In this document: one piece after another, positions 16,395 through 64,000 of the stretch
How positions within the stretch are numbered: position 1 is the first letter of the stretch
Layout of the letters: the number at the start of each line of letters is the position of its first letter
Assembly (NCBI RefSeq): GCF_047511655.1
Contig: NC_133398.1
Span: 110,252,332 to 110,316,331, forward strand
Origin: Castor canadensis
Taxonomy: Eukaryota; Chordata; Mammalia; Rodentia; Castoridae
Reading direction: 5' to 3'
Length of the DNA: 64,000 nt
Program-made: the position numbers and the translations under genes
Notes under the pieces: model-generated
Database searches by the model: none
What the model was told of the DNA's origin: nothing
Seen by the model: only the letters and a program-made list of their open reading frames with translations

Positions 16395-18180
16395 CAATAT
16401 TATTTACTCAAAAGAACCAGTGAAAGAAGGGTAAATATTGCTAATTCAATTTTTATAGGAAAATTACTCCAAACTCAAGGAGATTCATGATCATTCCTAA
16501 AGTTGCACTAATATCACATGCTCAAAGTGCTCAGATGGACATAGCCTAGAATATCAAAAATCACCAAAGAGTGATAGCAATTTAGGATCAAAATAAGGAT
16601 TCAGTGATTCAAGTGCAAAGTATATTTAGAGGAGAGCTATAAAGTTTGAATAAAAGACAAGAAATCAAAATTTATGTAGAGTATGAAGGAGTACTGAAAT
16701 GGAATACTTACCAATGCATTTGAAAAGAAGTAAACAGTTTCTGTGCTAAAGATTAAAAGCTTCCTTCCACAAGTTTGAGTAACTGTGAAAGAGAAATGGC
16801 AATACGGAAATATCCAGTCAAATACTCAGAAGGCAAAAGTCTACTTAAAATCCAATCACTAAAAATTATCACAGAAATAAATGTAAATTATCAGATGGGC
16901 ATATCCTTATTCTTAATCATAGTGCTCAAGAAGGTGACCAGGACATGTAAGAATTTCAGTTACTCCTAGAACTTTTGAATTAATAAAACAAGTTTTTTTC
17001 TTTTCTAGATTGGTATTGATTTTGAATTTATCCATGTCTTACATAAGCTACATAGAGTCTATGTTGTTTATGGCACCTATATTTTCTGACATTTTTATAT
17101 GTATTTTGTTATTCATAAATATATGTAATAGATTTTTTTCAATGGCCAGAATATATTAGATTTGTAGGAACAGAGATCATTCACAGAGAAATTTCAAGAG
17201 TCCTGGTGGATGTTCTAGGACACTAAACAATACCCTAAGAACTGAGAGAAATGAACATACAAGTTGTCAGTTTTTTCAGTTATAAATTATCATGTATTGA
17301 AACATAAAATATCAGTGATGAAGCAATAATTTATTGAAAATTGTGAATGAGAATACTTACATAAAATGTGAAAAATGAATTCAAAACCACAGAAATAAAG
17401 CAGAAGACAGGTATCATAAAAATTATCCTACACTTAGGAGAAAAATCAGGAAGGAAGTTTATATATAAAACCTTAAATTTTGCCTTAAAATTTATTATAA
17501 GCCAGAACGAATTCTATGCCAAATAAATCTAGAAAGTATACAAACATTATTACATTACAATGGTCAATCGTTGGTATAATTTCATGTGGCTTCCAAACAC
17601 TGTGTACAGTAAGGTTTCCAGAAAAATAATTACTATGAACTTTCTGACTTCTCACTAAGAAATTCAACATGACCACAGGATACTTGTTTAAGAATAAGAT
17701 TCTAAGTAAGTCTTCACAAAGTAGAACATGTAATTTAAATTGTAATATATGTACAAAATCCATTCCATGGTTTAGAAAAGTTTTATTGAGATTGAACAGA
17801 GAACATAGAAAAAAAATTGAAGTAAAGAAAAAATAACATTAAATTTTTATGTAGGATGTAAATGAAAAAATTGACACTTGCAGTTCTAGGGAAAAAATTC
17901 AGCCACTTAATTAATCAAGGTGCTACAAATTATATGCACTTTATTTTATCTTTGACTTTTTGCAATGTGTAGAAAAACTCTCAGGAAATCACAGAAAATA
18001 GAAGAAGATCCTGACCTCAGAATTAAAAGGCCTAAAAGAAACATTGCATTTGCAAGTGACAGAATGTGCAAAGAAAATGAGAAGAAACGTGTTCAAAGAT
18101 ATTTATTAAAATTTAAAGAAAAAGTTACAAACAAAATAGTCACTCACATATATTTATAAAATACACTGATATAAGTTCTA
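16395..18180 (+). repeat. Unclassified AT-rich repeat family, plus copies
   Basis: This carries the box order seen in the later clusters. The upstream box (GGTGACCAGGACATGTAAGAATTTCAG) is near 16935. The CACAGAGAAATTTC form of box A is near 17190, and a TTATAAATTATC box D is near 17280. A GAAGCAATAATTTATTGA box C is near 17318. CTTCCAAACACTGTGTACAG (box B) is near 17590 and a TCTCACTAAGAAATTCAAC box F is near 17650. No reading frame is preserved. Confidence 0.6.
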
Positions 18181-19015
18181 TAGTGATACTTTTATAGAAA
18201 GCACATCAACTATACTCACCTTCTTAGCTTCCTTCATTTAGCCTCCTTCTTCCATTCATTATTGCCCCTTAACCCAATTTTAATATTTTTGCACTTGTAT
18301 TGTGATTATCTTTCACATATAAAAGAAATAATACACTTTTTTTCTTTATGAACAAGGCTTATTTCACTTAACATTATGTCCTTCAACTACATCCATTCAT
18401 GTTCAAACTAAGTGGTTTCATTCTTCCTAATGAATACAACACCTCCACACACACAAGCATTTTCTTAATTCATATATATAATCTTCTTAATTCATTCCTC
18501 AATTTTAGAGCATTTTGGCTGTTACTATAGCTTGGCTATTGTGAATATTGCTGCAATAAAGATCAGTGTGGAAGAGTCTTTGCTGTATTCTGACTTACAT
18601 TCCTTTGGGTATATCCCTAGGGTGGTATTGGAGCAGCATATGGGAGTCCTATTTTTAGTTTCTTGAGGCAACTCCCTATTGTTTTCCATAGTGATTGTAC
18701 TATCTTACATTCCCACCAACAGTGTATGAGGGTTCTTTTTCCTCACATCCTTGCAAACACTTGTTGTTTGTGTTCTTGATGATAGCCAGTTTAACATGAG
18801 TCAGGTGGAATCTTTTACATTTCCTTTATGACTGGAATTCTGAGCATTTCTTCATGTGTTATTTGGCCGCTTGGGACTTGTTTCATTGAAAAAGTTCTGC
18901 TTAGCTAATTTGGTCATTTCTTCATTGAGTAGCAGATTTTGGGGAGAGATTTTTTTATGAGCTTCCTGTATATTCTAGTTATTAATGCCTTGCCAGATGT
19001 ATAGTTGGGAAGAAA
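18180..19015 (-). mobile_element. 5'-truncated L1 (ORF2 C-terminus and 3'UTR)
   Basis: The plus strand shows the reverse-complement signature of the L1 end of ORF2. CTTGGCTATTGTGAATATTGCTGCAATAAAGATC is near 18530-18565, and TCCTTTGGGTATATCCCTAG near 18600. TTACATTCCCACCAACAGTGTATGAGGG is near 18705, and TTCCTGTATATTCTAGTTATTAATGCC near 18960. Confidence 0.85.
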
Positions 19016-19199
19016 GACTATATAATTTTATACCTGTTGGAATCAGCATAAGAAGGGGACTAAGGCAGAAATGAGAAAAACAGAATGTGTGAACCAATTC
19101 AGGTAATAATACATATACATAGGGAAATGTCAGAATGAAACGACCTGTATAGCTATCTTAAGCACTCATAAATGCATTTTTTTTCAAAAAAAGCACAAG

Positions 19200-19460
19200 A
19201 AGGTAAAACAAGTCTTATCTGGGGGTTGGTATCAGTGGGAGGCAGGACAGTATAAGAAAAGGGTGCTGGAGGTTTAATATAGGGAAACATTATGTACTCA
19301 AATAAGAAATGGAAAAATTAGATGTATTGAAACACTTCCAGGAATGGGGATAGGAAGACATAAAGGAGAATGATGGAGGGTGAATTCAACTATTGTATGT
19401 TGTAAAACACTTTTCTAAATCTCACAATGTACACCCATTAATATAATAATATGGTAATAA
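19200..19460 (+). mobile_element. L1 3'UTR tail fragment
   Basis: A purine-rich 3'UTR-like stretch (GGGGATAGGAAGACATAAAGGAGAATGATGGAGGGTGAATTC) leads to ACCCATTAATATAATAATATGGTAATAAAA, like other L1 3' ends of this window. Confidence 0.5.
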
Positions 19461-19464
19461 AAAT

Positions 19465-22400
19465 AAATATAAAATGTTTGACTTGTAAGCAAATCATTTG
19501 TATGATATTGTTAAAAATGAAATAATTTTACTAATGAATTATAGGAAGAAAATATAACCATCAAGCACTGAGGAAAGGGAGCCATTATGAAGAGATACAT
19601 GAAAAGTGAAATATATTGGTATAGAAATGTTAATAAATTACTACTTTTGAAGAAGATAGTGGAAAGAAAGCAACTATTCAGCAAAAAAAGAAAAAAAATC
19701 TATTACTCATAATTTCTACAAAAGACAGAAGAATATAGAAGGTGAAAACAAAATAGCCACTGCCACATGCTTGAACAATTATTAAAGGAAATGGCAATGC
19801 CTAAGAATAATATACTCAAATTTGCATAAAAAAACCCTATGAGCATCTTCAAAGCCCAAAACTGGGTGGAAATGTGAATTAACAAGATGTTATAAACTGA
19901 ATTGTCTTGACAGTGAATGTAAAGGAGAGAAGGAGACCTTGGAAACAGGATCTCAGTGAATTTTCAAGGAAATCCCCTGAGTTTTTGAACAGATGCTCAA
20001 AGAATCATAATTGTTCTAGCATATGACCCTGAATTTTCACCATGTTTCTGATAGAAATGTACTGAAAAAAGTTAAAGAAACAAATGCTTTCAGATATTAA
20101 GTGAGAAATCATGATGTGGTCAAAGATGTAATGATTTTGCAATTTAACTAAAGCTTAGAGAAACACTTTGTTTGTAATCCAAAAATAAATATCATAGCTC
20201 TTATTCATCTTGTTAAGCTACATAATGGCTAAAAGGCAAAGCAACACTTTTTGTGTGATCACTATCACTTTATAATGTATTTGAGCCCAAGAATTTTATA
20301 TTCATAAACATTTATGTTGTTCTAGAAAATTATCATGCTACTTCCTAAGTGAATAATTTGAATCAAACACTATTTTATTTGAATATAACTGACTTTTATG
20401 TTTTTGTGCTAATTTCTTTTTTCCACAAGTATGATTTTATCAAAACTTTTATAATTATACACACATTTTTAAAATATGAAATTTCATCTTCCAAATTTAA
20501 GTGATATGTGTTAATATCTAACCTATTTTAGGAAAGAATTATTGTGTTGATACCAAAATATAAATTATGTTCTGGATATTTTAGAATAGCTTGAACATAT
20601 TGCATTTTTATAGTGTGTTTGTCTAAGGATAAAACTGCAGGCTGTTTCTAACCTACAATAAATGAATAAGTTTTCATTTCATTTCATGAATTCCAGATAA
20701 TTAAGAAAGATGTGGAGACAATAAACATAACTCTAAACTGTACTTTACCTGTATATTCATTAGCAAACCAAGTAAATTTTATAAAGGTTTGTAATAAATG
20801 CTGCTACATAGTATATATATTATCACTATCATTCTTTATTTCACTAAAGGGATAAAGGAACAAATTAGTAAAACAAAAATGTCATGCCGTATTATACATC
20901 CATATCAACAAATTGTCTCTAATATCTTTTGAAGTGATACAAAATTTTATAGTATTCAGTTTCTATTTTGTTTGAGGTATTTTGTGGATATGTGCCATAG
21001 GATTGCTCTTCCTTTAAAATATTCATAAAAATCAATAACTTGAATGGAGCAAGAGTATATTGAGGAATTTACATAAGAATATAGGAGAAAATCACTACAG
21101 AATCAAATACAAGAAAGGGAAAATATCAGAAGACTTAGTGATAAAAATTATACTCCATACATCAGAAGAACTATGATGAAAGTTTATATCAAATCCAGAT
21201 GTTTGCTTCTGTAATTTTAAAAAGTAAGAGTCAATGCAAAATGACCTATAAATCTAGGAAGTTTGAACAGAATGTTCAATCTTAGAAGAATCTTAGAAGA
21301 GGTTACATATTGGCATGGTTTCGTGTAACTGCATATGAATATCACTAGCGCATCTTAAAATTTACAGGATCTTCTGACATGACAATGAATAAGAACATTA
21401 GGATGGTCACATCTTATCTGCCTCAAGAAATCACCAGTGTATCTATGCAATGTACATATAGTACAAGATGTGACTCAAAAATAAACTCCTCATAATACCT
21501 TTTTATAGAGGAAAATATATGGAGAATAAAAAGTAAATAAGTGAAATTTGGGAAGTCAAAAAATAATAAAATATACATGGGAGACAAAATTTTAAAATTT
21601 ACAATTGCATATTTAGAGAAGAAAAAAATTCAGTCAAATTAATTAACACTACAACACACACATAATAAATTACAAGATGAAGATGTTGCAACATAGATAT
21701 TCTCTATGGCAACTTTGACAAAGAAAACTTAAACCCAGCAACAATCCAGTAAAGAGGAGAAACAATTTTATTGAGAGTGTAAGGAACTCAAAGAACTCAC
21801 AATAAAAACTCCTAACAAGTTGAGAACATGATCCAAGTATAGGAATGGGCCAGACCTAGTATAGTAAATTTTTACATTAGTGAAAAAAATGTACCAAGAA
21901 ATCAAATAAATAATGCTTTCAAACATTAAGTTATAAATTATTCTGTGGTAAATGATGTAAAGAAATCAATAATTTGATGGAACAGTAGTCTATTGAGAAG
22001 TATGCACGACAGTACTGTTGTATGAACTATTATGTAAACAAGTCCAAAAACTGTCCAGAGACAGACAAAAATTTTTCTCTTCACATATCAGAATAATCTT
22101 GAAGAATGTTTATCTCTAAATCTAAGTGTTTTCCACTAGAAATGTCAATTAGTTCATCAAGGATGAACTCAAAATATCATAGTACTCTAGAATATGTAAC
22201 AAAACTATACTCCATAGAAGTAAAAACTATTACAGAGATTTTTAGCTGGCTACTGAACACTATGTTCATGAAGTTTATCAGGACAACACTGATTTTCATG
22301 GATGTTTGTGACATCACAATGGAGAGAAAATCAAGTAGGCCACAAGATAACTGTGCCAGGAAATTTCACTCTAAGTAAATTTTTCCACAAAAGGATATAT

Positions 22401-24240
22401 ACATTTAAAACCAAAGTCCTTCCCTAAACAAATTTCTCTATTTACAAAAGAATATATATATATAGTGATTAAGCAGAGAAGAAAATAAAATACGTGCAGT
22501 GGCAAAAATAAAACATTGTAACATTTCTATACATGCTTATGATGTGCCTTAGTTAGATTTGCTCCACCAAATCTTCCCTTTTTTTCCATTCACCTACTTA
22601 AAACAATTACAACAAGTTTTATTGTTTTATTTCATATAAATATATAAATTACATTAGAAATATTTTGTTTAAGGAAAGTAAGATATTACTCAATTCAAAG
22701 CATATATACTAGAAGGAAAATTGCATATGAGCAACTGGAATTAAATGAGCCATAGGCTCTGCATTCTAAATGAATGCATATTCATATTACATGTTTGAAT
22801 AATTATTTAAATTATGTTCCATACCTAAGGATACTACAATTAAATTTTCATAAGAGAAAGATTTAATTAAAATCCATTCAGCATAACCAATGTAAAAACT
22901 GAGTGCAGAGATAAATAATTGGGTTTTTACAACCTGGTTTTTATCAATAGTGTGCATGTGGGTGGTTGGGATATTATACTAATTGAGAAATTCAGACAAT
23001 TTACCAAGAAATCTCCAAAGAATTTGAGGACATGTCCCAACTGGAAGATTTGTCATAGCCCAAGATATTAAATCTTTACCCAAAGGCTAACACAAATGTA
23101 CTGATAAATTCAAAGGAAAACAGTTGTCATATATTAAGCATTGAATTTTTCTATGATAAAAGAAGTGAAACGATCACTAATTTGAATGGATTGATAACAT
23201 ATTGAGAAATGTGCATGACAGCACTGAAATAACAAAAATTCCAAAATACAGAAAATGTTATAATAAAAGTCAAGTATCTTTAATTACTCTAAATATAACA
23301 GACTAAACATGAAGAAATTTTATTTGTGTGTCAAAATGTACCCTCTGAGACTCTCAACATTCTATGATCAATATAAATTGTAACTGAAATCTATAAGGTA
23401 TAAAAATGTGATTGTGGAAATGGTAAATTATTATAGTGATTTCACTTAACTCTTAAATACTGTACATTAATTCTACCAGGACAAAATATAATTTAGAGGA
23501 AATTTCTTACATCTCAATGTCAAAGAAAATCATGATGCTCTTATGTTACCTGCACCACAAATAGTCCGTCAAAGAAAATATGTACATAAGTGATACATAA
23601 TATGAAAAGAAATGACTCAAAGTACATTCTACTCTTTAGGCAAATGTGTTAAGATCAAAGAAGGAGAAACAGGAAGTATCTAAAAATAACATCATCCACA
23701 CGTCAATCTTTCAATTATATGTAATGTATATTAGATTAACTATTGCATTTTAGGAAAAAAGTAATCTGTTGGTATAAATTAATCAATACTGTCATGTAGA
23801 CAAAAAGTCATGCTGCAAACTATTTACTCCATTGTACCTATCTTAAAAAAGGGGAAAAAATTAAAAACTGGTAGCAGCACTCAAAGAAAAAACATTTCTT
23901 AGGATCCAAATTTAATGTTAAATTGGCCTTCAACCCTGTGTAAACAAAGGATACCAGAGAAGCTGTAAAAATGGTAGTATCTTCAGACCTAATGATGAAA
24001 ATCTAAAAAAAGGAGTCTACCATTCCCATAAGCCAGATGGGATCTAAACCAAGATATTAACCATATTCATACAAATAATTTTAATCTCAAATAAAAACAG
24101 TAAGAATATGGTCACTTAGATAAGACAGTAGAAAATACATTAATATGACCATGGCAATAAATGAGTAATTTTGGAGAAGTCATAATGGGAAGGAAACTAC
24201 TCATAACCATTTGGGGAAAAGGGACAATCACTGATGTATT
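19465..24240 (+). repeat. Unclassified AT-rich repeat family, head-to-tail plus cluster
   Basis: At least three successive copies lie in the same orientation. Box D (CTTTCAGATATTAAG-type) is near 20090, with variants near 21930 and 23135. Box C (ATTGAGAAATGTGCATGACA) variants start near 21055, 21991 and 23201. Box B variants (CTGGCTACTGAACACTATG-type) are near 21315, 22245 and 23440. Box F (CACAATGGAGAGAAAATCAA) variants are near 21385, 22316 and 23515. Copy-to-copy spacing is about 0.93 and 1.2 kb. The join at about 21770 passes straight from the end of one copy to box A of the next. It is very AT-rich with no conserved ORF. Confidence 0.65.
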
Positions 24241-24244
24241 CTTG

Positions 24245-24676
24245 AAATGATGGCATCAATTAAACTCAATGTGAGAAATCAACAACAAAAACAGCAGTAA
24301 ACAATATGCAAATAATTAGAAGCTGAACAATACATTGCTGAATGATCAATGGGTCATTGATAAAATAAAAGAGGAAATTAAAACATGCATGGAAGTTAAT
24401 GAAAATGAAAACACAAGCTATCCGAACCTGTGTGACACAGCAAAGGCAGGCCTAAGAGGAAAGTATATAGCCATGAGTTCATATATTAAAAGGACAGAAA
24501 TATCTCAAAACAATGATCTAATACTCAGCTCAAACTACTAGAAAAAGAACAAGCAAATCTCAAAACAAGCAGAAGGAAAGAAATAATTAAAATAATGGCT
24601 GAAATCAATGAAATAGAAACAAACAGAAACATACAAAGAATCAAAGAAACAAAAAGCTGATTCTTTGAAAAGAAAT
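24245..24676 (+). mobile_element. L1 ORF2 internal fragment (end of endonuclease domain)
   Basis: It is strongly similar to 28310-28665 of the full-length L1. Shared strings include GATCAATGGGTCATT, GTTAATGAAAATGAAAACAC and ATATTAAAAGGACAGAAATATCTCAAA. It is an internal piece, truncated at both ends. Confidence 0.85.
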
Positions 24677-24904
24677 GGAGGCAAATCAGCACTTCCATAA
24701 AATTGTCACACCAGTTAGGTTTGAAAACTTGTAATAGAAGTTTGTGCTTACAGAAAGTTATAATACAAATCAGAGAAACATTAAATAGAATAGAAATCAG
24801 ATATTTTCTAAAATATCTTTTTGTTATTCTGCTCAAAACTTATTTCTGCATGAATGTTTAGAAAACTCTCATATTTGATCTCTGCTTAGCATGACCTGTT
24901 TTTC
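24677..24904. other. AT-rich spacer between L1 fragments
   Basis: I see nothing I can identify between the two oppositely oriented L1 pieces. Confidence 0.4.
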
Positions 24905-25097
24905 ATAATATTGCATGCATTTGTATTAACTCTGTATTCCACAGATGAGAGAAAACATATGGCTTTTGGCCTTCTGAATCTAGCTAACTTCACTCAAGAT
25001 GATGTTCTCCAGTTCTGTCCATTTACCTGCCAATGGGAAAAATTTCATTCTTCTTTGTGGCTCAAAAAAATTCCAGTGTATGTAAAAATCACATGAA
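24905..25097 (-). mobile_element. L1 fragment (ORF2 C-terminus)
   Basis: The plus strand (GAATCTAGCTAACTTCACTCAAGATGATG, CCATTTACCTGCCAATGGG, CATTCTTCTTTGTGGCTC) matches 8045-8165 of the minus-strand L1. Confidence 0.8.
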
Positions 25098-25118
25098 AAA
25101 CAAAATCAAAACTCCTCA

Positions 25119-26378
25119 AAAGATCCAAGATAGCAACTAGATAGAGGAAGTTGACAGCATGAGCTCTGTAAAGCAAAAATCTTGTTGAGATGCTGGAGAC
25201 ACACCTGGCCTGAAAAACCACCAAAAGAAGAACAACTCTGACACCCTGAACCCCCAGCCTACACAGAGCTTCTGCATGCCACCTTACACAGAGAAACCAG
25301 GAGGGCTCCTGCACCTCCAGACACCAGTTCATAACATTTTTGGGAGACACAGACCAACAGGTGAGCAAATAAGTGGCACAGGACATCCCCACAGCCACAC
25401 TTGGGATAAACCAGCATAGCCCCCTGGACAGTCTGACCCATGCCCTTGGGGAAAAAACTGAACAATAAGCAAGGAACTGAAAAGGACATGTAGCAAAGGG
25501 GGCAGGATGCATTGAGAATGCTGGAGAAGTGGGGAGGGGCAGTCTCCCTAGCCAACGTTAAATAAACAAAGCCTTCTAGAGAAGGTGGGTGTGATGGCTC
25601 CCCCAAGCGAACTTTACTGAATAATGCCTGCAACAGTAGCTGACATGCAGCACTCTTCACTGGAGAAGAGGGAAGGGGCAGTCACACTCATGAGCTTTAA
25701 ATAAACAAAACTTGCTGCAGTAGGTGGGTGTGAAAACTCTCCCAGCAAATTTTAAATACATAAAGCCAGCAACAGCAGCCTGCAGGAAGTAGGTGGCAGA
25801 TGAACCACAGCCTGAAACAGGCTGATAGTTGACCCAACCACCTGGCAAGACAATGACACTGCTAATGCTTAAATACCAACACCAGGACTGGATGTTGAAA
25901 GAGCAATACCAGAACTACTAAGACTGAAACATCATTGTTTCTGGACCTGAAATTTTAATTTTTTATAGTTTTATATATCTTTTCTATTTTTTAAATTATT
26001 TTTTCTTTTTTCATTATTAATATTAATTTTTCCCTCTGGTGAGACAAAAACAAAGCTAGTACTCAAATACCAACCAGGACTGGCTACTGAACAATTAACA
26101 CCAGAGTTATTAAGACTGGAATTTTTATTGAAAAAGATTTTTTTTTCTTATTCCCTCTTCTTTTTTCTTTTTCTCTTTTTCTCTAAATACTTGCTTAGTT
26201 TACTGTTGATGAGTACAGTCATCAAGAGTAAACACTCATTAATTTCTTCAGCTCTCTATTTTTTCTTTTCTTTCTTTTTCTTCTTACTCTTCCATTGTAG
26301 TTATCATTAACTTTACTATTACAAGGTAGATTATACTAAATTATACACAGTCCAGGGACAGTAATAGCACCAAGTAGA
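25119..26378 (+). promoter_or_regulatory. 5'UTR/internal promoter of the plus-strand L1
   Basis: After the shared AGATCCAAGAT tip it has its own upstream module. This includes two tandem monomers of about 140 and 128 bases (25521-25660 and 25661-25788). A duplicated block of about 70 bases follows (25861-25930 and 26055-26122), then T-rich tracts, then a pyrimidine tract (26140-26300). An ACACAGTCCAGGGACAG segment lies 30-40 bases before ORF1. Only the pyrimidine tract onward is clearly homologous to the other L1. Confidence 0.75.
25521..25788 (+). repeat. Two tandem monomers in the L1 5'UTR
   Basis: CTGGAGAAG(T/A)GGG.AGGGGCAGT starts each unit, at 25521 and 25661. TTAAATAAACAAA and GGTGGGTGTGA recur at matching offsets. 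Inside each unit a TTTA..TA.ATA.AGCC-like segment recurs about 55 bases apart. The arrangement resembles monomeric promoters of mouse L1. Confidence 0.75.
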
Positions 26379-27510
26379 ATGAAGGGAAGAAGGAAAAAGG
26401 ATGGAAATCATTTTTCCCCCAATAACAAGTTAGTACAGAAACCAGAGGGAATTGAAGAAAACTGATACTCAGATTCAGACTCCAGCGAAACAAAGAAAAA
26501 CTATACCGAGGAACCCAGGAAAGCCCATAAGAACATTCTGAAAGAAGAAATCCTGCAAGTAATCAATGAGAATTTCACAGAGATGATCCTGGATATGGTC
26601 AACCACATTGTACAGGAGACACTGAAGAAATTCCAAGACAACAAAAATAAATATTACAAGCCCTGAATAAACACCAAAGTTAAAAAAAGAATACCATAAA
26701 TTGACAATACTAAAGAGGAAGTGACCCATGATATGGAAAACTTCAGAAAAAAGGAACAAAAGAGAAATGCAAAACAAAATGGAAGGCCACACAAGCAGAC
26801 TAGAACAAGCAGAAGACAGAATCTCAGAACTCAAAAATGAAATTTTAATTAAGGAAAAACTGAAGAACTACTAGTCAGAAAACTCAAGACCTGTGAAAGG
26901 AATATGCAAGAATGCACCAACTCAATCAAAGACTAAACATGAGAATCATGGGCATTGAAGAAGGAGAAGAGGTGGAAACAAAAGAATTTTGTAACATATT
27001 CAACAAAATAAATACAGAAAATAACCCAAATCTAGAGAAAACAATGGCAATCAAGTACAGAAAGCCTCCAGAACACCAAAAAGACTTGACCAAAATAGAA
27101 CCACCCCATGACATATCATCATTAAAACATCAAGCACAGAGTATTGAGAAAGAATATTGAAGGCTGTAAGAGAAGAAAAAAGAAATAACACACAAAAGTA
27201 AACCCATCAAAATCACAGCAGATTTCTCAAAGGATACCTTCAAAGCAAGAAGAGCATGGAGTGAGGTGTTCCAGGCACTGAATGAAAATAACTTCAACCC
27301 TGGGATGCTCTACTCAGAAAAACTATCATTCAAAATAGATGGAACAATAAAAGTCTTCCATGATAAGCACAACTACAACAATATATGACCACAAAGCCAC
27401 AACTACAAAAGATTCTTCAAGAAATTCTGCAAAGTGAAAGCAAACAAAATTATGAAAGGGCAGGCAGTACCAAAGCACAGGAGAAGAAAAGGCAAGAAAG
27501 TAGAGAGTAA
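26379..27510 (+). pseudogene. L1 ORF1, broken
   Basis: The start ATG is at 26379 (MKGRRKKDGNHFSP) and a TGA replaces codon 29. The coiled-coil region follows in shifted frames (KEEILQVINENFTEMILDMV). The RNA-recognition part is at 26912-27160 (MRIMGIEEGEEVE, IFNKINTEN). A C-terminal-domain remnant (LSFKIDGTIKVFHDK) lies near 27325, and the frame closes with QEKKRQESRE and TAA at 27508-27510. Confidence 0.82.
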
Positions 27511-27560
27511 CATCGATTTAGCTGCACACAATCAAAACCTAAAACAACTAAGACAATTAA

Positions 27561-30500
27561 ATGACAGGAACCACAACATACCTATATTAATACTGAATAT
27601 TAACAGACTTAATTACCCCATCAAAAGACACCTTTTGACAAACTGGATTAAAAAGGAAGATCCAATAATTTGTTGCTTACATGAGACCCATTTCATCAAC
27701 AGGAACAAGCTTAGGCTTAGGGTGAAAGGCTGGAAGAAGATTTATCAAGCCAATGGTCCCCCAAAACAGTCAGAAGTAGAAAAACTTACCTCATACAATA
27801 TAGACTTCAAATCTATATTGATCAAACGAGATAAAGAAGGACATTCCATACTAATAAAAGAGAAAATACACCAAAAGTAAATAACAATTATCAACCTATA
27901 CACACCCAATATCAATGTACCCAGTTTAATCAAACATATTCTGAAGGTCTTAAAATCATATATAAACTCCATCACAGTGCTAGTGGGAGACTTTAATAAC
28001 CTCCTATCACCAATAGGTAGGTCAATCAAACAAAAAATTAATAAAAAAATCCTAGATCTAAATCATACCATAGATCAAATGGACTTAGCTGCTGTCTACA
28101 GAATACTTCATCCAACTTCTACACAATATATATTCTTCTCAGCAGCCAATGGAACCTTCTCCAAAGTTGATCATATCCTAGGGCACAAAGCAAGCCTAAG
28201 CAAATATAAGAAAATAGAAATAATACCATGCATTCTATCTGATCACAATGCATTAAAACTAGAACTCATCAAAAATAATAGCAAAAAATATGAAATATGC
28301 TAACAGTTGGAAACTGAACAACACATTGCCCAGTGATCAATGGGTCATTCATGAAATAAAAGAGGAAATTAAAAGGTTCCTGGAAGTTAATGAAAATGAA
28401 AACACCACTTCTGGAACCTGTGGGACACAGCAAAGGAAATCCTGAGAGGAAAGTTTATAGCCATGAGTGCATATAGTAAAAGGACAGAAATATCTCAAAT
28501 CAGTGATGTAATGCTACATCTCAAACTCCAGAAAACAAGAACAAGCAAACCCCAAAACAAACAGAAGGAGAGAAATAATAAAAATAAGAGCTGAAATCAA
28601 TGAAATAAAAACAAAACAAAAACATACAAAGAATTAATGAAATGAAATGTTGGTTGCTTGAAAAAATAAACAAGATTGACAGACCTCTGACAAACCTGAC
28701 TAAAATGAAGGGAGAAAAAATCCAGATCAGTAAAATCAGAAACGCAAAATGGGAGATAACCAAAAACACCACAGAAATCCAGGAAATCATCAGAGACTAC
28801 TTTGAGAATCTATATCCCAATAAATTTTAAAATCTTGGAGAAATGGACAGATTTCTAGATACTTATGATCATCCAAAATTGAACCAAGAGGGCATTAATC
28901 ACATGAATAGATGCATAGCACACAATGAAATTGAAACAGCAATAAAGTGTCTCCCAACAAATAAAAGTCCAGAACCTGATAGATTCACTGCTGAATTCTA
29001 TCAGATGTTTAAAGAAGAACTAATAACAAGTCTCCTCAAACTGTTCCATGAAATAGAAAGGGAAGGAAAACTGCCTAACTCATTTTATGAAACCAGTATC
29101 ACACTCATCCCTAAACCAGGCAAAGTCACCTCCAAAAAGGAGAACTATATGCCAATCTCTTTAATGAATATTGATGCAAAAATGCACAATAAAATAATGG
29201 CAAACTGAACTCAACAATAAATCAGGAAGGTCATTCACCATAACCAAGTCGGCTTCATCCTAGGAATGCAGGGGTGGTTCAACATAAGCAAATCAATAAA
29301 TGTAATACAGCACATTAATAGAAGCAGACAAAAATAACTTAATCATCTCAATAGACACAGAGAAGCCTTCATCATTATCCAACACCATTTCATATTAAAA
29401 GCTCCAAGAAAACTAGGAATAGAAATACTTGAACATTATAAAAGTTGTATATGACAAATCTACAGCCAACATCATACTCAATGGCGAAAAACTGAAACAA
29501 TTTCCCCTAAAAAAAGGAATGAGACAAGGGTGCTCATTATCCTCATTCCTATTCAACATTGTACTGGAATATCTAACCAGAGTACTTAGTCAAGAAGAAG
29601 TAATAAACAGAATGCAAATAGGTAAAGAAAATGTCAAAATATCCCTATTTGCAGACAATATGTTCCTATACCTTAAAAACCCAAAAACCTCTACTCAAAA
29701 ACTCCTAGACAGCATCAACAGCTACAGCAAGGTGGCAGGACACAAAATCAATATACAAAACTCATTAGCTTTTCTATACACTAATAATGGACAAACTGAG
29801 AAAGAATATATGAAAACAATTCTATTTATAATAGCCTCAAAAACATCAGATACCTACAAGTAAACTTAACAAAGTATGTGAACGACCTCAACAAGGAGAA
29901 CTATAAACCCTGAGGAAAGAGATTGAGGAAGAGTACAGAAGGTGGAGAGATCAACCATGCTCATGGATTGGTAGAATCAATATAGTAAAAATGGTTATAC
30001 TACCCAAAGCAATCTACATGTTTAATGCAATTCCCATCAAAATCCCAATGACTTTCATCACAGAGATTGAAAAATCTAACCTAAAATTCATTTGGAAACA
30101 CAAGGGACTGTGAATAGCCAAGGCCATACTCAGCAAATTAACAATGCTGGAGGTATCACAATACCTGATTTCAAACTATATTACAAAGCAAGAACAAGAA
30201 ATACAGCATGGTACTGGGAAAATAACAGACATGAAGAACAGTGAAACAGAATAGAGAAACTGGATATGAATCCAAACAACTCTATCCAACTTATTTTTGA
30301 AAAGATGCTGAAAATATACAATGGAGAAAAGACAGCCTCTTCAATAAATTTGTTGGGATAAGTGGCCAGCTGTCTGCAAAAAACTGAAACTAGGTCCATG
30401 TTTATCACCCTGTACTAGTATCAACTCAAAATGGATCATGTACCTTAATTTCAGACCCCAAGCTCTAAAGTTGGTACAGGAAAGGGTAGGAAACACCTTG

Positions 30501-34085: not shown

Positions 34086-34089
34086 AAAA

Positions 34090-37535: not shown

Positions 37536-37539
37536 TTTT

Positions 37540-41000: not shown

Positions 41001-41009
41001 AGATTAATT

Positions 41010-43190: not shown

Positions 43191-43194
43191 AAAT

Positions 43195-46005: not shown

Positions 46006-46009
46006 TATT

Positions 46010-50290: not shown

Positions 50291-50389
50291 TTTCTCACAC
50301 TTTACTTTCCTTTTTCCTTAATTTAAAACTTTTTATTTTCTACTGTAATATCCGAGAGTCTGTTTTCTTTGTATGTTTTTCCATAAATT

Positions 50390-50432
50390 TAAATCTCTCT
50401 CTTTCTCTCTTTCTCTCTCTCTGTCTTTCTCT
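50390..50432. repeat. (TCTC)n simple repeat
   Basis: A CT-rich low-complexity run. Confidence 0.9.
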
Positions 50433-50597
50433 GAATGTGTTTCTGTTTGGTTATCTCCTGTCACATTAAAATATGATTTCAATTTGTGGACATTTTATCC
50501 TGAGGTCTGAAGCTACCTTTATAGTCTTACTTTGCTGACAGTCTTTGAATACTCAGGGCTGAAAGCCTGAAGCAAGCATTTTCTCACTATCTAACTG

Positions 50598-51178: not shown

Positions 51179-51389
51179 GATTATTTGACATAAACATATT
51201 AGGAAAAGCAGCTGCTCTGCATCTTACTCTAGACTTATTCTGTGACTGGTGCTTGCCAAACTCAGCCTACAGAACATTGAGTAAAACTATGCTAATATTC
51301 TCAAAGGTTTCTTCTACTCCACTCCCCATATAAGCTAATTTTTGTGTGATCATGCAAAGTGTCTTTCTGCTTCTCTGTTGGTAGGGGAT
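51179..51389. other. Non-coding sequence flanking the LTR candidate
   Basis: Nothing identified. Confidence 0.35.
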
Positions 51390-53215
51390 TTAAATTTTCC
51401 TGTCTGATGAGAGTTCAAGTAGAGTCTCTGTAGGTTTTAAACCCTTATATTTTTATTGGTGGTCAATATTTGTGGTTTATTTTAGGTATGTTTACTATTG
51501 CATAATCTATGTGACTGGATATTTTTCCTTTTATTTCAAAAAAGTAATGGCTTAGATTTTCAATTTTTGTCACTTATACAGTGAATATTATCTTTTTGAC
51601 AACCCACAAATTTTGTGTTTTCTCATCAATCTGAATATGTTTTCCAAAAACAGTGGATACATTTTAAGAAAGATTTTCCTTCCATATTTACTCTTTCCAC
51701 TGAGTATATATTTGCTAAGGATTGTTTGTGAGTCCTCACACAAGGAACATATTGTCAGTTTCATATTCTTTGTCATTGGGTATGAGAAACTTAAATTCTG
51801 TATTGACCTCATAATCTTCATATAATTAGAGTTTATCAGCAAGATGAAGCCAATTGTTGAATTAGCTGTTTCCTAGTAATACTTTTCCTTACACTTTCTA
51901 ATTTTCTAACAAATTTTATTTTGTCATAGACTGTTGAAATTTCAGAGCTATGTTGGACCCAGTGAAAGCCACAAGAGTAGGTGAACATTTTACAGAGTGT
52001 CCATGACACACTCCATCCTTTGCACTATTGCTTTGTGTGTTATAAAACATATCCTGGATAACACTTTGCAGACAGAGAAAGAGCCCAGCAGACTAGAGGA
52101 GAGAAGAGAAATATTGTTGAAGATGATCTGGAACAAAATATAACCCTTGGTATCCTGTCCAGAAAAAACTGTAGGAGTGGGAAAGTTATGACATAACTGT
52201 AAATATTAACTCTGAAAATTATTTAGCTTCGTTCTCCAGTCAACAGACATGTAGTGACTGAATGACTTTTTTTAAACAAAATGACCTTATTATTTGTTGC
52301 CCAAATGCACTTTAGTGTCAGTGACAAACATAAGCTTAAATCTAAAGGATGGAAAATAATGTTCTAAGCATGTGATGCTGAAAAGCAAGCAAGTGGCCTA
52401 TACTCATATCTGAAAAATCAGATTAAAAACTAAAAATTAAAGTTAATTTATTATTATGAAAATAAGTCAGTTTACATAAAGGTAATTTTATATTGATAAA
52501 GGAACACATTGAGAAGTGATAACAGTTGTGAATAGATGCAGATTGAATGTTGATACACTCAATTTAATAAAAAATACTGAACCAAAAAGCACCAGTAGAC
52601 CTAAAACAAATTAATCTGTGTTATTTGTGACATCATTATTTTGTTATTTTTTTATGTTGAATATTGATCCATTTTTTTCTCTTTTTTAACTTAAGTATGC
52701 AATAGTCAGTTCTTTAATTTCATTTTGCATATTAGTTAATGCTACTTGAAAAAACCATTTTTAATAAATCTCAATATAATTTTCCTCAACAGTGCAAAGT
52801 ATTTACAGAGTTTCTTTTTCAACTGCATTTGCTTTGACATAAATATTTACTTAAATAGATTTGTTATTCCTGGCCAAAGTTATCTGGCACCAACTTGATT
52901 TTCTTTGATATCATGATGACTTAAACCATTAGAACTATATTCTAGAAAAGTTGGAGGAAGTTAGGACTGCCAAAGAAAATCACATCACTATTTTTTCTGA
53001 ATAAGTATGAAAGCATGATGCAAATACCTGGATATACTCAAATTTTCAGAAGAAATGCATGTGAATACTGTTAAATAGTCACCTTTTCTTCAGAGTGGAA
53101 AAGTATACATGAATGCTCTTATTTGAAAAAATATTTGAAGATGTTAAATTAACCTGATAAATAGGTTCATACATTATTTAAAATATCATTGAATTATTGT
53201 TTGAGTAGATTAGTA
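51390..53215 (-). repeat. Unclassified AT-rich repeat family, inverted copies
   Basis: CATATTCTTTGTCATTGGG...GAGAAACTTAAATTCTG near 51760 and CAACTTGATTTTCTTTGATATCATGATG near 52890 are reverse-complement box F. The 51950-52190 part is not recognised. Confidence 0.5.
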
Positions 53216-53459: not shown

Positions 53460-56400
53460 TTTATAATATACATAGGCTTTATTGTAATTTTTATAAGCTA
53501 GGAAAAAGTAAATCCAATAACAATCCATCATTGAAAACAGTGTAAGATCAGAATAAACTAAATTGTTCTTCATTCTTTTGTACTCAAACATTATTAGGAA
53601 AAAGTAGAATATGCAAGAATGTTACACAATATGGTAAAATATTAAGGCAGAAAATCATATTTCCACTTTCCCCAAGAGCCTATTCTTAGCTATAAACCAT
53701 GCTCATAGAAATTACATAGTAAAACATAGATATGACATGAGTATTTAATATTAAGGTAGAAAAAAAAGAAAATATATTGGTTAGATTGTGCTAAGAAATA
53801 ACTAATTTTAAAACTGAGGTAACAAAAGCAAAAGTAATTTTTAGTGACATTGGGAACAGATATTTCCATCTGTATTCTAGAAATAAGGAAAAATTTTAGT
53901 AGGATAAATTTTTAAAAACTCCATGTCCCTGTATTAATATATTATAAAAGAATGACTGCAAAACTTAGATTTAATATATTCAAATTTTCATGAATAAATC
54001 ATACAATTAAAATCAAATCAGCATCTTCAAATGCCAAAAGTGAGTGGAATGGACAAATTGTGAGGTTATCATAAAGTGATTTCCATTATAAGTACACATG
54101 TAAATGACCTGGATATATTAGAATTGGAAAAATTTAAGGAACTCACAAGTAAATTGGCTCAAGAAGGTGATGACATTTTATGTACATTGAGATGAGCCAG
54201 TCATTATACATTAAATAATCATTTTAATGTTCATAGATGTAAACAGAAAAATCAAAGAAATATGCATTCTAATACAAAACAATAAATTATGATGTGACAA
54301 AAGAATTAAGAAAACAGTAATTTGGTGTTGAAAAAATATGTTCGGGCATGTACATTAAAGAACTGAAAACAAAAACATTACCAATTCCACAGACCAAACA
54401 ATATCAGAAGACAAATATTTACAAGTTACTCATCATACACCTGGGTAATATTGAACAAAGTACACACCTAAATTCAGATGTAATCCCTGGGAATTTTAAG
54501 AAACCTGTATCACCTTAAGTCACCTTAAAGTCCTAGAAAAACAATAACAGAGTATGCACTACGTATGCTAAAATGGTAAACTATTATAATAGTTTCATCT
54601 GCATACGAAGAACTGAATAAATAAAGGTTATCACAACACAAAATTTTGAGAAAATTTCCATCTACACAATGATAAATATAATTAATATTGCCTCAAATTA
54701 ACCATGCAGAGAATGGACAAAATGAGTAAAATTTGCATAAATGAAGATATGAATTCTGACTCCAGAAAACATATATAAGTAATTAGAAAACATATATATG
54801 ATAATCAACAGAGAAGAAAATAAATGTTTGAAATGGCCAAATAGAAATATTAAATATAAATGTGAGATAAAATATAAAATTGTTCACTACATTTTAGAGA
54901 TATAAAATAAAAAATAGTCACATAATCTAATTCAAGTTTCAATATAAGCAAAGAAATAAGCAAAACACAAAAGATGCCACAAACAAAATAGATTATATTT
55001 TGCCTATAATAGGAAAGGAAAAATTTAAAACCTGTACAAACCCAGTAAATGAAAAACAATATTTTCTTGAAAGGTTGCAAGATGAGACTAAAATTAGTTA
55101 ACTTTCACATATATACAACAAGTATGGAAGATATAAAATGTAAAAAAAATGTCATTGCATTTTCATGGAAATAATATAAAAACAACTTGATTCACGTGAA
55201 TGAGGAAATACTGCAATGTAAACCAAAAATATACAAAGAGTGATGACACTACCTAAATAGGGCCTATGTAACTTTCAATGTAAAGGAAAGGAAAACCTAT
55301 CCATAGCTTAGATAGTGTAGGATAAACTGTAAAAACTGAAGAATTTTAACAAAAATATGTGGAAATGGTAAAGTATTGGAGTGGTTTCCTCTGCCTGCTT
55401 AACAAGGTGAACATGAAGACTGCCAACTAATGTACAATTTTCAGGAAGTTTCTGATTTGATGACAAATATAATCAAGGTTAGAAAAGGATATCTGTGCCA
55501 TGACTATCAAATAAAAGTAAAGATTTACAATATAATAAGTACATTTAAAAGGACATGCCTCTAAATACAATCCAATGTTTTTGAAATACATAGTTAGATT
55601 AAACAGAAAGTTAAATAAAAATTTGAAATGGCAAATATGTTTGGGGATATGTGAGATAAAATTTAAAGAAATGAACATTGCATTTTAATAGAAATAAAAT
55701 AAAGTACTCACATCACATATGTAACTCAATATCACAAAAAACCAAAAAAAAAAGATCAAAGGACAAAGATGAAACTAACAGCAGAGTGTTTTATAGAAAA
55801 GGGAAAATAATTATAGTTAGTTCCAATATGGGGAAGGAGAAAACATTTTCCTAAGTCATGTGAAATCAGATTCAACTAAACTGATTTTCAACCCTGTTTA
55901 TATAAATGCTATTAGTGTAACTTGCATTGCACCTAAAATGCAGAAAAAATAAATCCACAATCCTATGTATCAGGGTGGGAAAGGAAATGGCATTAAACCT
56001 TGTTCGTAGAGGTACATAGAAATTCATAGAAAAACGTGGAAAAATTACTCAGATATTACAGTAGAAATTACATTGGTATTAGAATGTTAAATAATGACTA
56101 CTTGCAGAGAAAACACAATGAAAATCACTTATCTGTGACAAAGGTATAGGGATCACTATCACATCTAAAAGACAAAGAAAATACTTAAATGAATAAATTA
56201 AAAACTCAAAGTAACATGCCTGAAAAATCAGTGAAGAAATATATGTAATCTTAGATATAAAATACTAAAATATTTGCAGTAAAATGATTTTGTTAAAAAC
56301 CAATCACCATCTCTAAAGACATAAATTGAGTGTAGAAAAGAACTACCAGTTTGTCATAACCTGACTAAATCACAGTAGAAGTGAAGGTGACCAAGACATA

Positions 56401-56990
56401 TTTATATCTTAGAAACTCAGAAAACCCCTAAAATAACCCACATGAAGCTTAGGGGGTGTTTGAATCAAGAGGATGAGGTGGTCCTAGCAAATTAAATACT
56501 CACAGAAGTGCTAAATTCATTTAAAAATGAATTCAAAGACTAAAATCATTTTAAATATTAACCTATATATTATTCTGTAACTTGCACATAGAAATAATGT
56601 GTTAAGAGAACTGTGCATGAGAATGATTAAAAAAACTTACCAAATCAATTCCAAAGGAAAGAAAATCTACCAGAAGTTTGATATTTATAAATTCCACTTC
56701 ACATATAATAATCATGAAGAAAAGTTGTATCTACATGCAGATTTATGCCGTGACAATATTCGAGTCCAGTATCAACTCAAAATATTAGATAATTCTAGAA
56801 AATGTAACACAAAATACATTAAAAAGAAACAATAAATCACTGAAATGGTTTCAAAAAGCTACTAAACACTGCACATTAAATTCACCAGAACAACATAGAA
56901 TATTTGGAATGGATATGATGTTGCAAAGGCAAGAACATCTAGGCATCTCCTGTTTGCCTATTCCAGTAACTACCAATTTTCAAAATACCA
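53460..56990 (+). repeat. Unclassified AT-rich repeat family, plus cluster
   Basis: The upstream box is near 54022 (AATCAGCATCTTCAAATGCC) and 56302. GGAACTCACAAGTAAATTGG (box A) is near 54139. Box B is near 54580-54610, 55370-55415 and 56845-56870, spaced about 0.8 and 1.46 kb. AACTGTGCATGAGAATG (box C) is near 56609. No conserved ORF. Confidence 0.6.
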
Positions 56991-60172: not shown

Positions 60173-60299
60173 GTAAAATAGTAAATGGTTTATGTGAGGA
60201 ACAATGGGAGAAAAAAAGGAAGATTTGCTATGGGCTGAATATGATCGAAGTATATTGTACATGAATGAAAATAACATAAAATACTCTATGTTTAATTAT

Positions 60300-61480
60300 A
60301 CTTTTTATTACTTTTCTACATCCTTTGCATTGACTAAGCAAGAACATATATAATGTTTAGATATATTCAACCTTTTATGATTATTCTGTTCCATGGGGTT
60401 ATTATTAAATTTAGTTGTCTGGTATTTGGGGGGGGATTTAGAATCAATTTGTAATGAATATCTTCACCACTTTTATACATAGCCCACCATATTAATGATT
60501 TTGCCTCTTTTGTCACATAATAATGTAAAACTTAATATCTGAGTAGAATAAATTCTACTTAGAATTTATCTTTACATTTAAATCAGCACTTGGGTAAATT
60601 TAATGTTTTTCGTCATATACATAATGAGGCTTGGATCACATACTCTACTTCTTTTGAGATTCACCTTTGCATACACTGATATCTTCAAAATCTAATCTGT
60701 ACATTCCTCTGTACTGTGATTACAAGCCAGATTATGGCATCATTACTCCTATTCATTTAGTTTTTGTTTTGGGAGATGGTGATTAGTTTTTACCCAGATT
60801 CTCTGAATGTGAAAATATGAATATATTATATGTAAGTAATAGTTTCCTTTATTAATAAATATGCACACATATGGCAATGAGATTTTTGTTATGAATTTTT
60901 AAATTCCTTCCTTCTTTTAAAGAATTTACTGGTAATGGTTTAATTTGTCCTGTCAATGTTAATATGTTTTGTTATCATTTAGTTTTCTTCAAGTTAATTT
61001 CTTCTAGTTTCATATCATAGTATTTTATACTGCAATATTGCAGTTACTTTTTTGATAAATTCATCTACCTACATGAAAATGCTTTATATCCCCATCTTGA
61101 CTTGCCCTGGAATGTGGAAATGTGTCCCACATTATTTGGAATGCTACTGAGATCTAAACTTTTATATATATGTTATATTTTTCTGTCAATTTATGTACAC
61201 AGAATTGAAAGCAAGCTAAGTTAAGTAGGGTTAGGAACAATTTTAGGGAATTTTTTGTTTCCAACATAGGTTCTGGTGTTAAATTTAGCCTTTATGCTGA
61301 AAGTTAAATTTTAGTTTTTGTAATATGTGACATTTTTATTTTATAATTTAATTGCATAAGTTGTGGTATTGATTAATTTCTATGATTTCAGTGTTTTCTT
61401 TTTTCCTTAAAAATGCCATGGTCTGTTTTTAAATTTAATCTTACATAGACTTAAAGTCATCTTTTTAAAAATTCAATAAT
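60300..61480 (-). repeat. Unclassified AT-rich repeat family, inverted copy
   Basis: GTAAAACTTAATATCTGAGTAG near 60525 (box D), AAATCAGCACTTGGGTAAATTTAATG near 60580, and GAGATTCACCTTTGC near 60655 lie in reverse-complement order. Confidence 0.5.
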
Positions 61481-61489
61481 ATAATTTTC

Positions 61490-61810
61490 AGAGATAGGTC
61501 CAGTGTCTTAAATTTATAATTCTAGTTATTCAGGAAGGCAGATTACAGATTAGGAGGATCATGGTTACAGATCAGTACAGGCAAATAGTGTGCAAGATAC
61601 CATCACAACCACTGGCTGGGTGTGGTGGTGTGTGCATGTCATCACAGTGACACTCATAAGCATAAACAATATCATTGTCCAGGCCAGCCCTGGCATACAA
61701 GCAAGACCTTATGTCAAAAATAAGCAGCAAAAAGTGGCTGGAAGGGTGACTCACGGGCACCTACTTAGGAAGCATAATGTCCTGAGTTTAACTGCAAGTA
61801 TGTTGAAAAT
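61490..61810 (+). mobile_element. Two SINE units in tandem (B1/ID composite)
   Basis: The first unit (AATTCTAGTTATTCAGGAAGGCAG...GAGGATCATGGTTAC...GGCAAATAGTGTGCAAGA) matches the reverse complement of 42335-42515. The second starts GGCTGGGTGTGGTGGTG, has a B1-like body with CAAGACC, and runs into an ID-like part (GTGACTCACGGGCACCTACTTAGGAAGCATAATGTCCTGAG). Both are diverged. Confidence 0.7.
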
Positions 61811-61849
61811 AATTTTCTTCTGTGTTTAATATTATCATTTTTCCTGTTG

Positions 61850-62595
61850 TGAAATGTATTTTGAGATGGAGTTTCCTTGTAGTTTTATAATTACCTTTGT
61901 ATAAACTTTAGAAGTACTGGCCATACTGGAACAAGAAACTGAGGCCACATTGATTGTCTCTGCCTTTGTAACAACTGGAGTGTCCTCAAAATTCCATACT
62001 TTTCAGATGATGTGTATAACCACTGCATTCAGCAGCTACTTGAAAATAATCCAGTAATTTTGCTTATCCCTACGTAATACACTTAACATATAGTAGTCAC
62101 TCAATGTTTGATATATACAATATGTATTTTTTCACTTTTAATGTTCCCACAGCATTTTTAATTGATCCTGGACTCCAGAAAATATAAATTACCCCTATCT
62201 TACCTTTACATAGAGTCTAGTAGTAAACTTACAAAAACAAACTTAAGGTACAACTTTCCAAAATGAATTAAGTTGCCAATTTCATAAAAGTCTTAATTTG
62301 ACTTCATAAGAATTGGGAAGCTAAAAACAAGCTGTTATCCCTTACTTATTAGAGACTTCAAATTAGGAATATAGTAGTCTCTTCAAATGAATTGAAATGA
62401 ACAGACATTGGCATGTAGTTTATTTATGTGGGCTTTTTAGATTTTAAAAAAGCCTCTCTTCCAAATAGAGTTCATAATAAATAACCATTAGATGATAAGA
62501 TATTTCCATACCTTACCACTACCAGAAAAATATAAAAGATTGCTATTAATCTGTCAAAAGTAAATAGGTCAATTTTTATTAATAGAACTCATAGG
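61850..62595. other. Non-repetitive-looking sequence
   Basis: It shows none of the conserved boxes and no L1 or SINE landmarks. I see no gene here. It may be the original single-copy DNA of the locus. Confidence 0.35.
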
Positions 62596-62599
62596 TACT

Positions 62600-64000
62600 A
62601 TAGTAAAATCAAAAGTTACAGTATTATATAAACTTTCAAGCAGAAAATGATGTGAACAATTAGTGGAATTTGTAGGCAAAAGGAAATTGTTATTAGTTTT
62701 ACTTTGTTAACCATTAACATTTAAAAGGATATTTTACTCTTATAAGAATACCTTAAGAAATAAAACTGTATTTTGCTTTTAATGATGGACTTCACACTAT
62801 TAATAAAGAATATATGTTGATATGAAATAAGTTAATAAAATAGAAATTCGTAGAAAAATATAGGTAAGTAACACTCAGTACATATCCAGAGAATTTGAGA
62901 TAAAATGACAATAGTAAGAATGACTCATTTCAAAGAAGACATAACAGTAAGAAAGTAATTATCAGGAACTGGGTAAAATTGACTATATGGACAAGAGTTT
63001 TGAAAGGAAGTGACACATGTTAGAATGCATAAAGAAAAACCTCATTATCACATATCTGAGTGATTATTAAGAAATATGCCATAACTACATGTAATATACT
63101 CATTTATCCACAAAAAATGAGGTAATTAAAAGCCAATCAACATTTTATAGCAAAACATAAGTAGAGACAATAAAATTTCGGCTGTCATAACCATGCTTGC
63201 TAATCTGAAAATAACCAAGAAATAGTAATATTTCAGGAAATTGGGGAACTCATAAGGAAATCTCTAAAGTTGAGGACATTTTGCAGGCTTTGATATAATC
63301 TCAATTTTCACCTAAGCTGTGATAGAAAAGTACAGGCAAAATGAAAAAAAATGCCTTCAGATATTAAGTTATAAAATTTGTAAAATAATTAGTAATTTGC
63401 ATGGAGAAATGTGCATGAGACTGGTGAAGTAATAATCATTAAAGACAGATTGCCAATACAGATAATCTTTAAGAAGAAGCATATTGAAATTACCATCCAC
63501 AAATGAGCATATACATGACTGAAAAGTATATCAAAATTTATATGTGCCCAATATATTTTAATTGTCCAGAATTAAGTCTGAACACCATAGAAATATAAAA
63601 TGAGTGATGAATAATATATTACATTGGAATGGTAAGCTGTTGGAGTGGTTTTTCTTGTCTGTTAAAGAATGTGTATATGACAATTCCCAAAAGATCATTG
63701 CACTATAAGAAATTTTATGATGTCACAATGAGAAAGAATTTCAAAGTGCTCACAGATTACCTACAACAGAAATGATAAATTTAGCCAAGTAAGGATTTTC
63801 ATAAAAGGACATTTAAATTTGAAACTTCTCATGCTACACTCCAATATTTAGGGAAAATATGTAGATAACAAAAATGAAATTAAAAAATAAATATATTTTT
63901 ATAAGTATATATATAAATATATGTTCATATATGTGACACAAAAATATGCACAAGTGTATATATGAGATAAAAGGGAAAACTTCATAATTACATTTTTAGG
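62600..64000 (+). repeat. Unclassified AT-rich repeat family, plus copy running off the window
   Basis: The full box order is visible in one copy. The upstream box is near 63133 (AGCCAATCAACATTTTATAG). GGGGAACTCATAAGGAAATCTC (box A) is near 63243, and CCTTCAGATATTAAGTTATAAA (box D) near 63353. GAGAAATGTGCATGAGA (box C) is near 63404. GGAGTGGTTTTTCTTGTCTGTTAAAG (box B) is near 63643, and GATGTCACAATGAGAAAG (box F) near 63719. This is the cleanest reference copy. Confidence 0.7.

Follow-up and report, generated by a model that had tools for sequence, protein, structure and literature searches.

In this study, we analysed a 64,000-nucleotide stretch of the Castor canadensis genome (contig NC_133398.1, here C13, positions 110,252,332-110,316,331, forward strand; genome of 2.81 Gb in 181 contigs). 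This stretch, called the window throughout, is AT-rich across most of its length, with an observed/expected CpG ratio of 0.07, and a preliminary description had proposed a large unclassified repeat family from position 16,395 to its end. We conclude, with a probability of about 0.86, that this interval represents a fossil satellite layer of higher-order structure, whose living descendant is a macrosatellite on C13. The window carries a tandem structure with a fixed order of three monomers, its end has a common origin with the live unit, and live and dead copies differ in their rate of change. Layered satellite evolution like that of primate alpha satellite, acting on a different monomer, is the most likely explanation.

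Identification of the repeat family

The family was originally recognized by six short boxes, and these recur above the expectation set by five base shuffles on one strand: box A (4 forward, 3 reverse; 0.0 expected per strand), box B (9 and 0; 0.6), box C (7 and 4; 0.8), box F (11 and 7; 1.4), an upstream box (5 and 0; 0.4) and, more weakly, box D (8 and 10; 4.0), with a few isolated matches located before 16 kb. They are not modules of one element as first thought, since A, D and C fall in one monomer type (X, below) and B and F in another (Y). Copies do occur in both orientations, four of the six boxes being found on both strands, and the pieces are arranged head to tail. Iterated nhmmer searches seeded with window positions 63,000-64,000 collected 21 and then 38 pieces (seed counted), all at or beyond 16,753. 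Eight other seeds taken through the identical protocol ended at 1-8 pieces; therefore, the protocol alone does not create families.

At E<=0.01, a 494-position monomer profile recovers 59 pieces that total 19,966 bp. The first begins at 16,514, close to the proposed start, and there are none in the first 16.5 kb of the window or in the reversed window, so that the family is real. The number of copies, initially put at about 15, becomes 56-59 pieces, and these cover 42% of the interval (20.0 of 47.6 kb) and not most of it. In a self-comparison, 20 of 57 self-matches join monomers to monomers and none joins L1 to monomers; the 59 pieces do not overlap any of the four L1 intervals. As previously stated, no open reading frame (ORF) shared between copies was found, the longest stop-free run in the first consensus being 57 codons.

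Monomer types form a trimeric higher-order unit

The first profile (877 columns) consists of two related halves about 490-500 bp apart, a model of the first half matching columns 635-772 with an E-value of 2e-14. The core model has 50 matches in the window and 1 in the reversed window. Among the 34 same-strand steps shorter than 900 bp, 23 measure 400-600 bp and 20 measure 460-545 bp, and model coverage often reaches its end and then restarts at its beginning, as in tandem monomers. The monomer is about 494 bp long and arranged head to tail as a satellite; Tandem Repeats Finder reported no repeat with a period near this length in the window.

Monomers fall into types X, Y and Z and a group W, which is older than the other three. 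The order X-Y-Z-X is obeyed at 20 of 24 scored adjacencies, a value reached by none of 20,000 permutations, and all five scored adjacencies involving W are W to W. Z runs into X in 6/6 scored cases; therefore, the tandem circle is closed. The array is a trimeric higher-order repeat of about 1.5 kb, interrupted by inversions and L1 insertions. Window members are 0.69-0.78 (X), 0.66-0.78 (Y) and 0.65-0.73 (Z) identical to their type consensus, with a mean divergence of 26-30%. Accordingly, the suggestion of a decayed macrosatellite was right in kind, while that of a non-autonomous element finds no support in the closed order. An L1-, SINE- or LTR-type interspersed element, already doubted in the preliminary description, was likewise rejected because monomers tile and close on themselves (no search for target-site duplications was made). 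The repeat also differs from alpha satellite in monomer length and in inner lags (best ungapped 222, 290, 229 and 281; self-identity at most 0.41), although no direct comparison of the two sequences was made.

Separately, a monomer core of about 75 bp (e.g., around window positions 23450-23530) is best kept between types (74-79%) and not within types, and is possibly an old binding site.

A live macrosatellite descends from the same lineage as the window end

C13 was sampled with twenty 10-kb samples and later with twenty smaller ones (loci labelled L001 and so on). At 100.0 Mb, the 10-kb sample consists of a 3,705-bp unit repeated head to tail with 99.7% identity. This unit is present at 9/9 points sampled between 99.3 and 100.7 Mb, on the plus strand, and at 3/3 points (108.5, 108.7 and 108.8 Mb) on the minus strand, the samples being 96.7-99.7% identical. 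It is absent at 99.0 Mb, at nine points from 101.0 to 108.0 Mb and at 109.2 Mb. Between 108.68 and 108.75 Mb, the intervals separating four matches measure 5.00, 11.97 and 1.00 units. A long homogeneous array exists, as all 12 points sampled within the two intervals carry the unit and we infer continuity between them; if continuous, the larger array would be 1.4-2 Mb long.

The live unit contains an inverted Y, a spacer, X, Y and more fragments, and its longest frame is 104 codons. It matches the window end and the 1.6 kb beyond at 83% over 3.6 kb (L001 is the C13 locus in which the match runs these 1.6 kb past the window). In the tree, the live X, Y and inverted Y are each sister to the window's last X, Y and inverted Y with support of 100/100. 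The live unit and the window end thus share descent.

Live and dead copies differ in rate and perhaps in pattern of substitution

The type consensus, to which the window's own copies contribute, served as outgroup for counting private changes in X, Y and inverted Y. Such changes number 92-109 in two live units against 38-45 in six dead copies. The rate of the live lineage is higher in 12/12 comparisons, which are not independent, by a factor of 2.2-2.8 (chi-square 19.6-33.1).

Changes from A/T to G/C number 45-56 in live units and 13-19 in dead copies, those in reverse 22-27 and 12-21. Scaled per site, the two directions nearly balance in the live lineage, and the dead copies are A/T-biased. 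In the 8 of 12 comparisons for which this difference was tested, it is significant against L004, L005, L007 and L008 (p 0.003-0.019; three of them close relatives) and not against L001 and L006 (p 0.12-0.83). The 12 live samples have an observed/expected CpG ratio of 0.29-0.45, against 0.08-0.10 for window monomers, L001 and L002. At the 32 CpGs of the live unit, L001 has no CpG and only seven TG or CA, so that these CpGs look like gains.

Pooled transitions and transversions number 186:245 when 8 of the 11 smaller live samples are compared with the first unit, 863:654 when L001 is compared with the other dead copies L004-L008 (L002, 7:4, and L003, 34:38, being too similar to L001 for this pool) and 1829:1366 in five L1 alignments. 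The live transversion excess has p-values of 6e-7 against dead copies and 4e-8 against L1 when pooled, in counts that are not independent, and 0.02 for one live sample against one dead copy. Against this contrast stand L003 and the live sample L032 (14:12), and the polarised ratio differs clearly in only one of the four comparisons computed. The weaker A/T bias and the extra transversions of the live lineage are less firm than its rate. In human segmental duplications, transversions are likewise in excess, CpG transitions are fewer and changes are drawn towards G/C (PMC10172114).

Relatives along C13 and on other contigs

A 601-base query gave 1,246 candidates; among the 40 scored, 38 lie on C13 (86.4-122.0 Mb), with single matches on C25 and C82. 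For a 1,680-base query, 42 matches were listed (40 of 763 candidates scored), of which 17 are on C13 (85-100%), five on C10 (69-80%), six on C16, C12, C6, C20 and C19, overlapping Y monomers, and 14 cover only an insert of about 140 bases. This insert lies inside the array (window 22514-22655), has 76-79% matches on many contigs and is probably an unrelated dispersed repeat.

The C10 stretch (L057, 2 kb) served as an out-of-sample test, the type models having been trained on the window alone. With E-values of 1e-36 to 1e-72, they read it as the head-to-tail series X, Y, Z, X, with a trimer period of about 1.48 kb by model positions, and found no match in 26 negative loci (206,577 bases: 18 C13 samples previously seen without monomers and eight loci at BEX-like genes). 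Identities to the window consensus are 79% (X1), 71% (X2), 75% (Y) and 64% (Z). The C10 X1, Y and Z are sister to X_22789, Y_23294 and Z_23822 (99/97, 99/95 and 97/86; bootstrap not fully settled), the final X, Y and Z of the window run 21026..24252; therefore, C10 holds an old duplicate of that trimer and not a separately grown array. The idea of a structural repeat of one chromosome thus nearly holds: C13 has 38 of the 40 scored matches of the first query and 17 of the 42 listed for the second, but C10 has a verified old piece.

Within C13, three of four W monomers at 114.0 Mb (L025) pair in the tree with the window W block at 41-43 kb, in inverted order, the trace of an old duplication. Of 24 matches to BEX-family genes, which we take to be X-linked, 21 fall on C20 and C13 has none; C13 is therefore probably an autosome and not the X.

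Map of the array

The features of the window are collected in Table 1. The inverted W monomers at 45004-45360 and 45446-45855 are sisters, in the tree, of those at 42916-43211 and 42496-42890: the W blocks 40931-43211 and 45004-46946 are an old inverted duplication around the small inverted X and the Y-Z-X run. Between the L1 at 24274..31727 and parts of the one at 7.6-13.6 kb, identity is 79.5-79.7%; the L1 name was given by eye, relatives of 7634..16367 carrying a long ORF2-like frame.

Table 1. Features of the window, from type models unless stated; the first piece, at 16514, comes from the monomer profile.
Feature	Position	Strand	Remark
L1 sequence	7634..16367	-	adjoins array edge, outside satellite; self-comparison
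X (16773-16974, 17143-17364), Y (17435-17895), Z (17966-18176)	16514..18176	+	left edge of array
X	19765..20189	+	
X Y X Y X Y Z (21026-21104, 21159-21622, 21775-22037, 22084-22534, 22789-23245, 23295-23760, 23827-24252)	21026..24252	+	
L1 insertion	24274..31727	+	within array, outside satellite; self-comparison
Y X Y Y Z X Y (34086-34462, 34631-34918, 34966-35282, 35301-35481, 35557-35954, 36009-36432, 36437-36788)	34086..36788	+	
Inverted X (36893-37352), Z (37396-37548)	36893..37548	-	
L1 piece	39642..40862	+	within array; self-comparison
Five tandem W (40931-41196, 41282-41683, 41770-42182, 42496-42890, 42916-43211)	40931..43211	+	
Inverted X in two pieces	43213..43708	-	
Y (43797-44224), Z (44302-44562), X (44722-44962)	43797..44962	+	
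Three inverted W	45004..46946	-	
Y X Z Y X X Z Y Y, left to right	47615..52926	-	minus-strand reading Y-Z-X-Y-Z-X; adjacency scoring, type models
Z X Y Z Y Z X Y (53477-53888, 53941-54387, 54437-54903, 55007-55108, 55240-55692, 55819-56177, 56214-56653, 56707-56978)	53477..56978	+	
Inverted X (60438-60871), Z (60911-61313), Y (61806-62183)	60438..62183	-	
Dead copy of the 3,705-bp live unit	61691..64000	+	about 83% over 3.6 kb, reaching 1.6 kb past the window in L001; comparison with live unit, tree
X (63050-63456), Y (63501-64000)	63050..64000	+	

Outside the array, window positions 2290-3880 (minus strand) hold a Tubby-like gene remnant, TULP3-like by eye, interrupted by stops and frame changes. 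Its translation yields two pieces with Pfam matches, to Tub_N (E 1e-10) and to Tub (E 1e-26), and it is probably a processed pseudogene.

Architecture of the C13 region

The matches at 97.90-98.40 Mb and at 110.17-110.71 Mb are arranged as mirror images, their coordinate sums being nearly constant at 208.562-208.563 and 208.616-208.617 Mb (7 of 11 pairs listed, the remainder being cross-pairs), and L001 has an inverted copy at 98.25 Mb (99.6%). These mirrored inverted arms (97.9-98.4 and 110.2-110.7 Mb, axis near 104.28 Mb) are 99.6-100% identical where the window was tested and form a possible substrate for recurrent inversion; the mirrored arrays suggest recurrent inversion of the 101-108 Mb segment. 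Beyond 111 Mb, 19 same-strand pairs lie 1.9-2.4 Mb apart, with spacings of 2.160 and 2.205 Mb found four times each and 2.068 Mb twice; megabase tandem blocks spaced by about 2.07, 2.16 and 2.21 Mb are seen along 111-122 Mb. Given the mirrored sums and the recurring spacings, this part of C13 has undergone duplications of many different ages and scales.

Two further C13 samples hold other tandem structures. At L019 (88.00 Mb), 5,356 bp of L1 sequence are duplicated head to tail with 99.96% identity, and an ORF2-like frame runs for about 1,000 codons. L021 (96.00 Mb) is a TG-rich tandem of a 2,788-bp unit (98.6-99.9% identical) without a match to the window.

Proposed history and alternative explanations

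As read from the sequences, an AT-rich monomer of about 494 bp first expanded in tandem, giving W and the ancestors of X, Y and Z, after which an X-Y-Z block of diverged monomers (about 1.5 kb) was amplified as a higher-order unit. Homogenisation then ceased, monomers drifting while inversions, block duplications and L1 insertions fragmented the array. A composite of inverted Y, spacer, X, Y and fragments was probably re-amplified as the 3,705-bp macrosatellite at two C13 places in opposite orientation. Recent large duplications probably spread blocks with dead layers over 86-122 Mb, one C10 copy being much older. Unequal exchange and gene conversion presumably maintain the uniformity of the live array, and repeated break repair or biased conversion may accelerate its change; DNA outside it would decay like neutral DNA, with A/T bias and CpG loss.

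In a wider and more tentative reading, C13 keeps a one-chromosome, non-alpha record of satellite turnover (fossil monomers, fossil trimeric array, live composite), in which the live state speeds up substitution 2.2- to 2.8-fold, abolishes the usual A/T bias, increases CpG and perhaps favours transversions; in its boldest form, the mirrored arrays would be an evolving or abandoned centromere. We rate it below even odds, and somewhat lower still because the A/T-bias contrast holds for only some dead copies.

A centromeric role of the arrays is possible on this evidence. It nevertheless seems unlikely that C13 has, or once had, its centromere here, with the live arrays as core and the dead ones as flanks in a layered, mirrored organisation like that of human chromosome 8. 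A near-uniform live array with more diverged layers outside, and arrays and flanking blocks mirrored about ~104.28 Mb, would fit, and the 2.2-2.8-fold live rate falls within the 2.2- to 3.8-fold reported for a human centromere region (PMC8099727). However, the axis lies in monomer-free sequence with a stretch that looks promoter-like by eye (L041), nine samples between 101 and 108 Mb lack the monomer, and no CENP-B-box-like site with at most one mismatch was found (24 with two mismatches, a raw count without expected value).

Alternatively, the array might be what lies between the genes of an AT-rich cluster, a tandemly duplicated family now decayed. Mammalian tandem gene arrays lie in AT-biased DNA (PMC10463633), the region has recent repeats of about 2.2 Mb, and the longest stop-free run of the non-L1 stretches (122 codons) slightly exceeds base shuffles (97, 97 and 100). 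Yet monomers of about 494 bp are short for gene units, neither consensus nor live unit has a long frame or any coding function visible in its frames, and neither an Rfam family at gathering score nor a tRNA was found, all of which makes this origin improbable. Similarly improbable is that copies of an interspersed element, itself built of three internally related domains, inserted into each other: both orientations and the six weak matches on C16, C12, C6, C20 and C19 would suit it, but Z runs into X here and again on C10, the window's first 16.5 kb is free of pieces, and 18 of 20 10-kb C13 samples lack monomers against 59 pieces in 47.6 kb here.

Comparison with known systems

To our knowledge, satellite layering is best worked out on primate alpha satellite. 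A non-alpha satellite with a fossil array near a living descendant, where the same sequence can be compared alive and dead on one chromosome, would test the generality of layering, fast change and altered substitution bias, and hence whether these are rules of tandem arrays or features of alpha satellite or centromeres.

Like the C13 arrays, primate alpha satellite (PMC9859433, PMC8099727) has monomer types whose fixed order makes up a higher-order unit, a young array that is nearly uniform and flanked by older, more diverged layers, a higher rate of change where the array is live, and a mirror arrangement. It differs in a monomer of ~171 bp, against 494 bp and a trimer here. Moreover, the C13 satellite has no close CENP-B-box-like site, its live unit is a 3.7-kb composite with an inverted part, and its two arrays lie about 8 Mb apart in opposite orientation. 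Trends towards transversion excess and G/C pull in repeatedly exchanged DNA are shared with human segmental duplications (PMC10172114); those data are population variants, whereas ours are small counts from repeat lineages of an AT-rich satellite. The macrosatellites DXZ4 and D4Z4 (PMC3218863, PMC13138017) resemble the live array by a kilobase unit (3 and 3.3 kb, against 3.7 kb here) and tandem arrangement at one or few chromosomal places. DXZ4 is set apart by X-linkage, C13 being probably not the X, and both differ from the C13 array, which has a GC content of 0.30-0.32, is built from an older satellite and apparently extends over 1 Mb.

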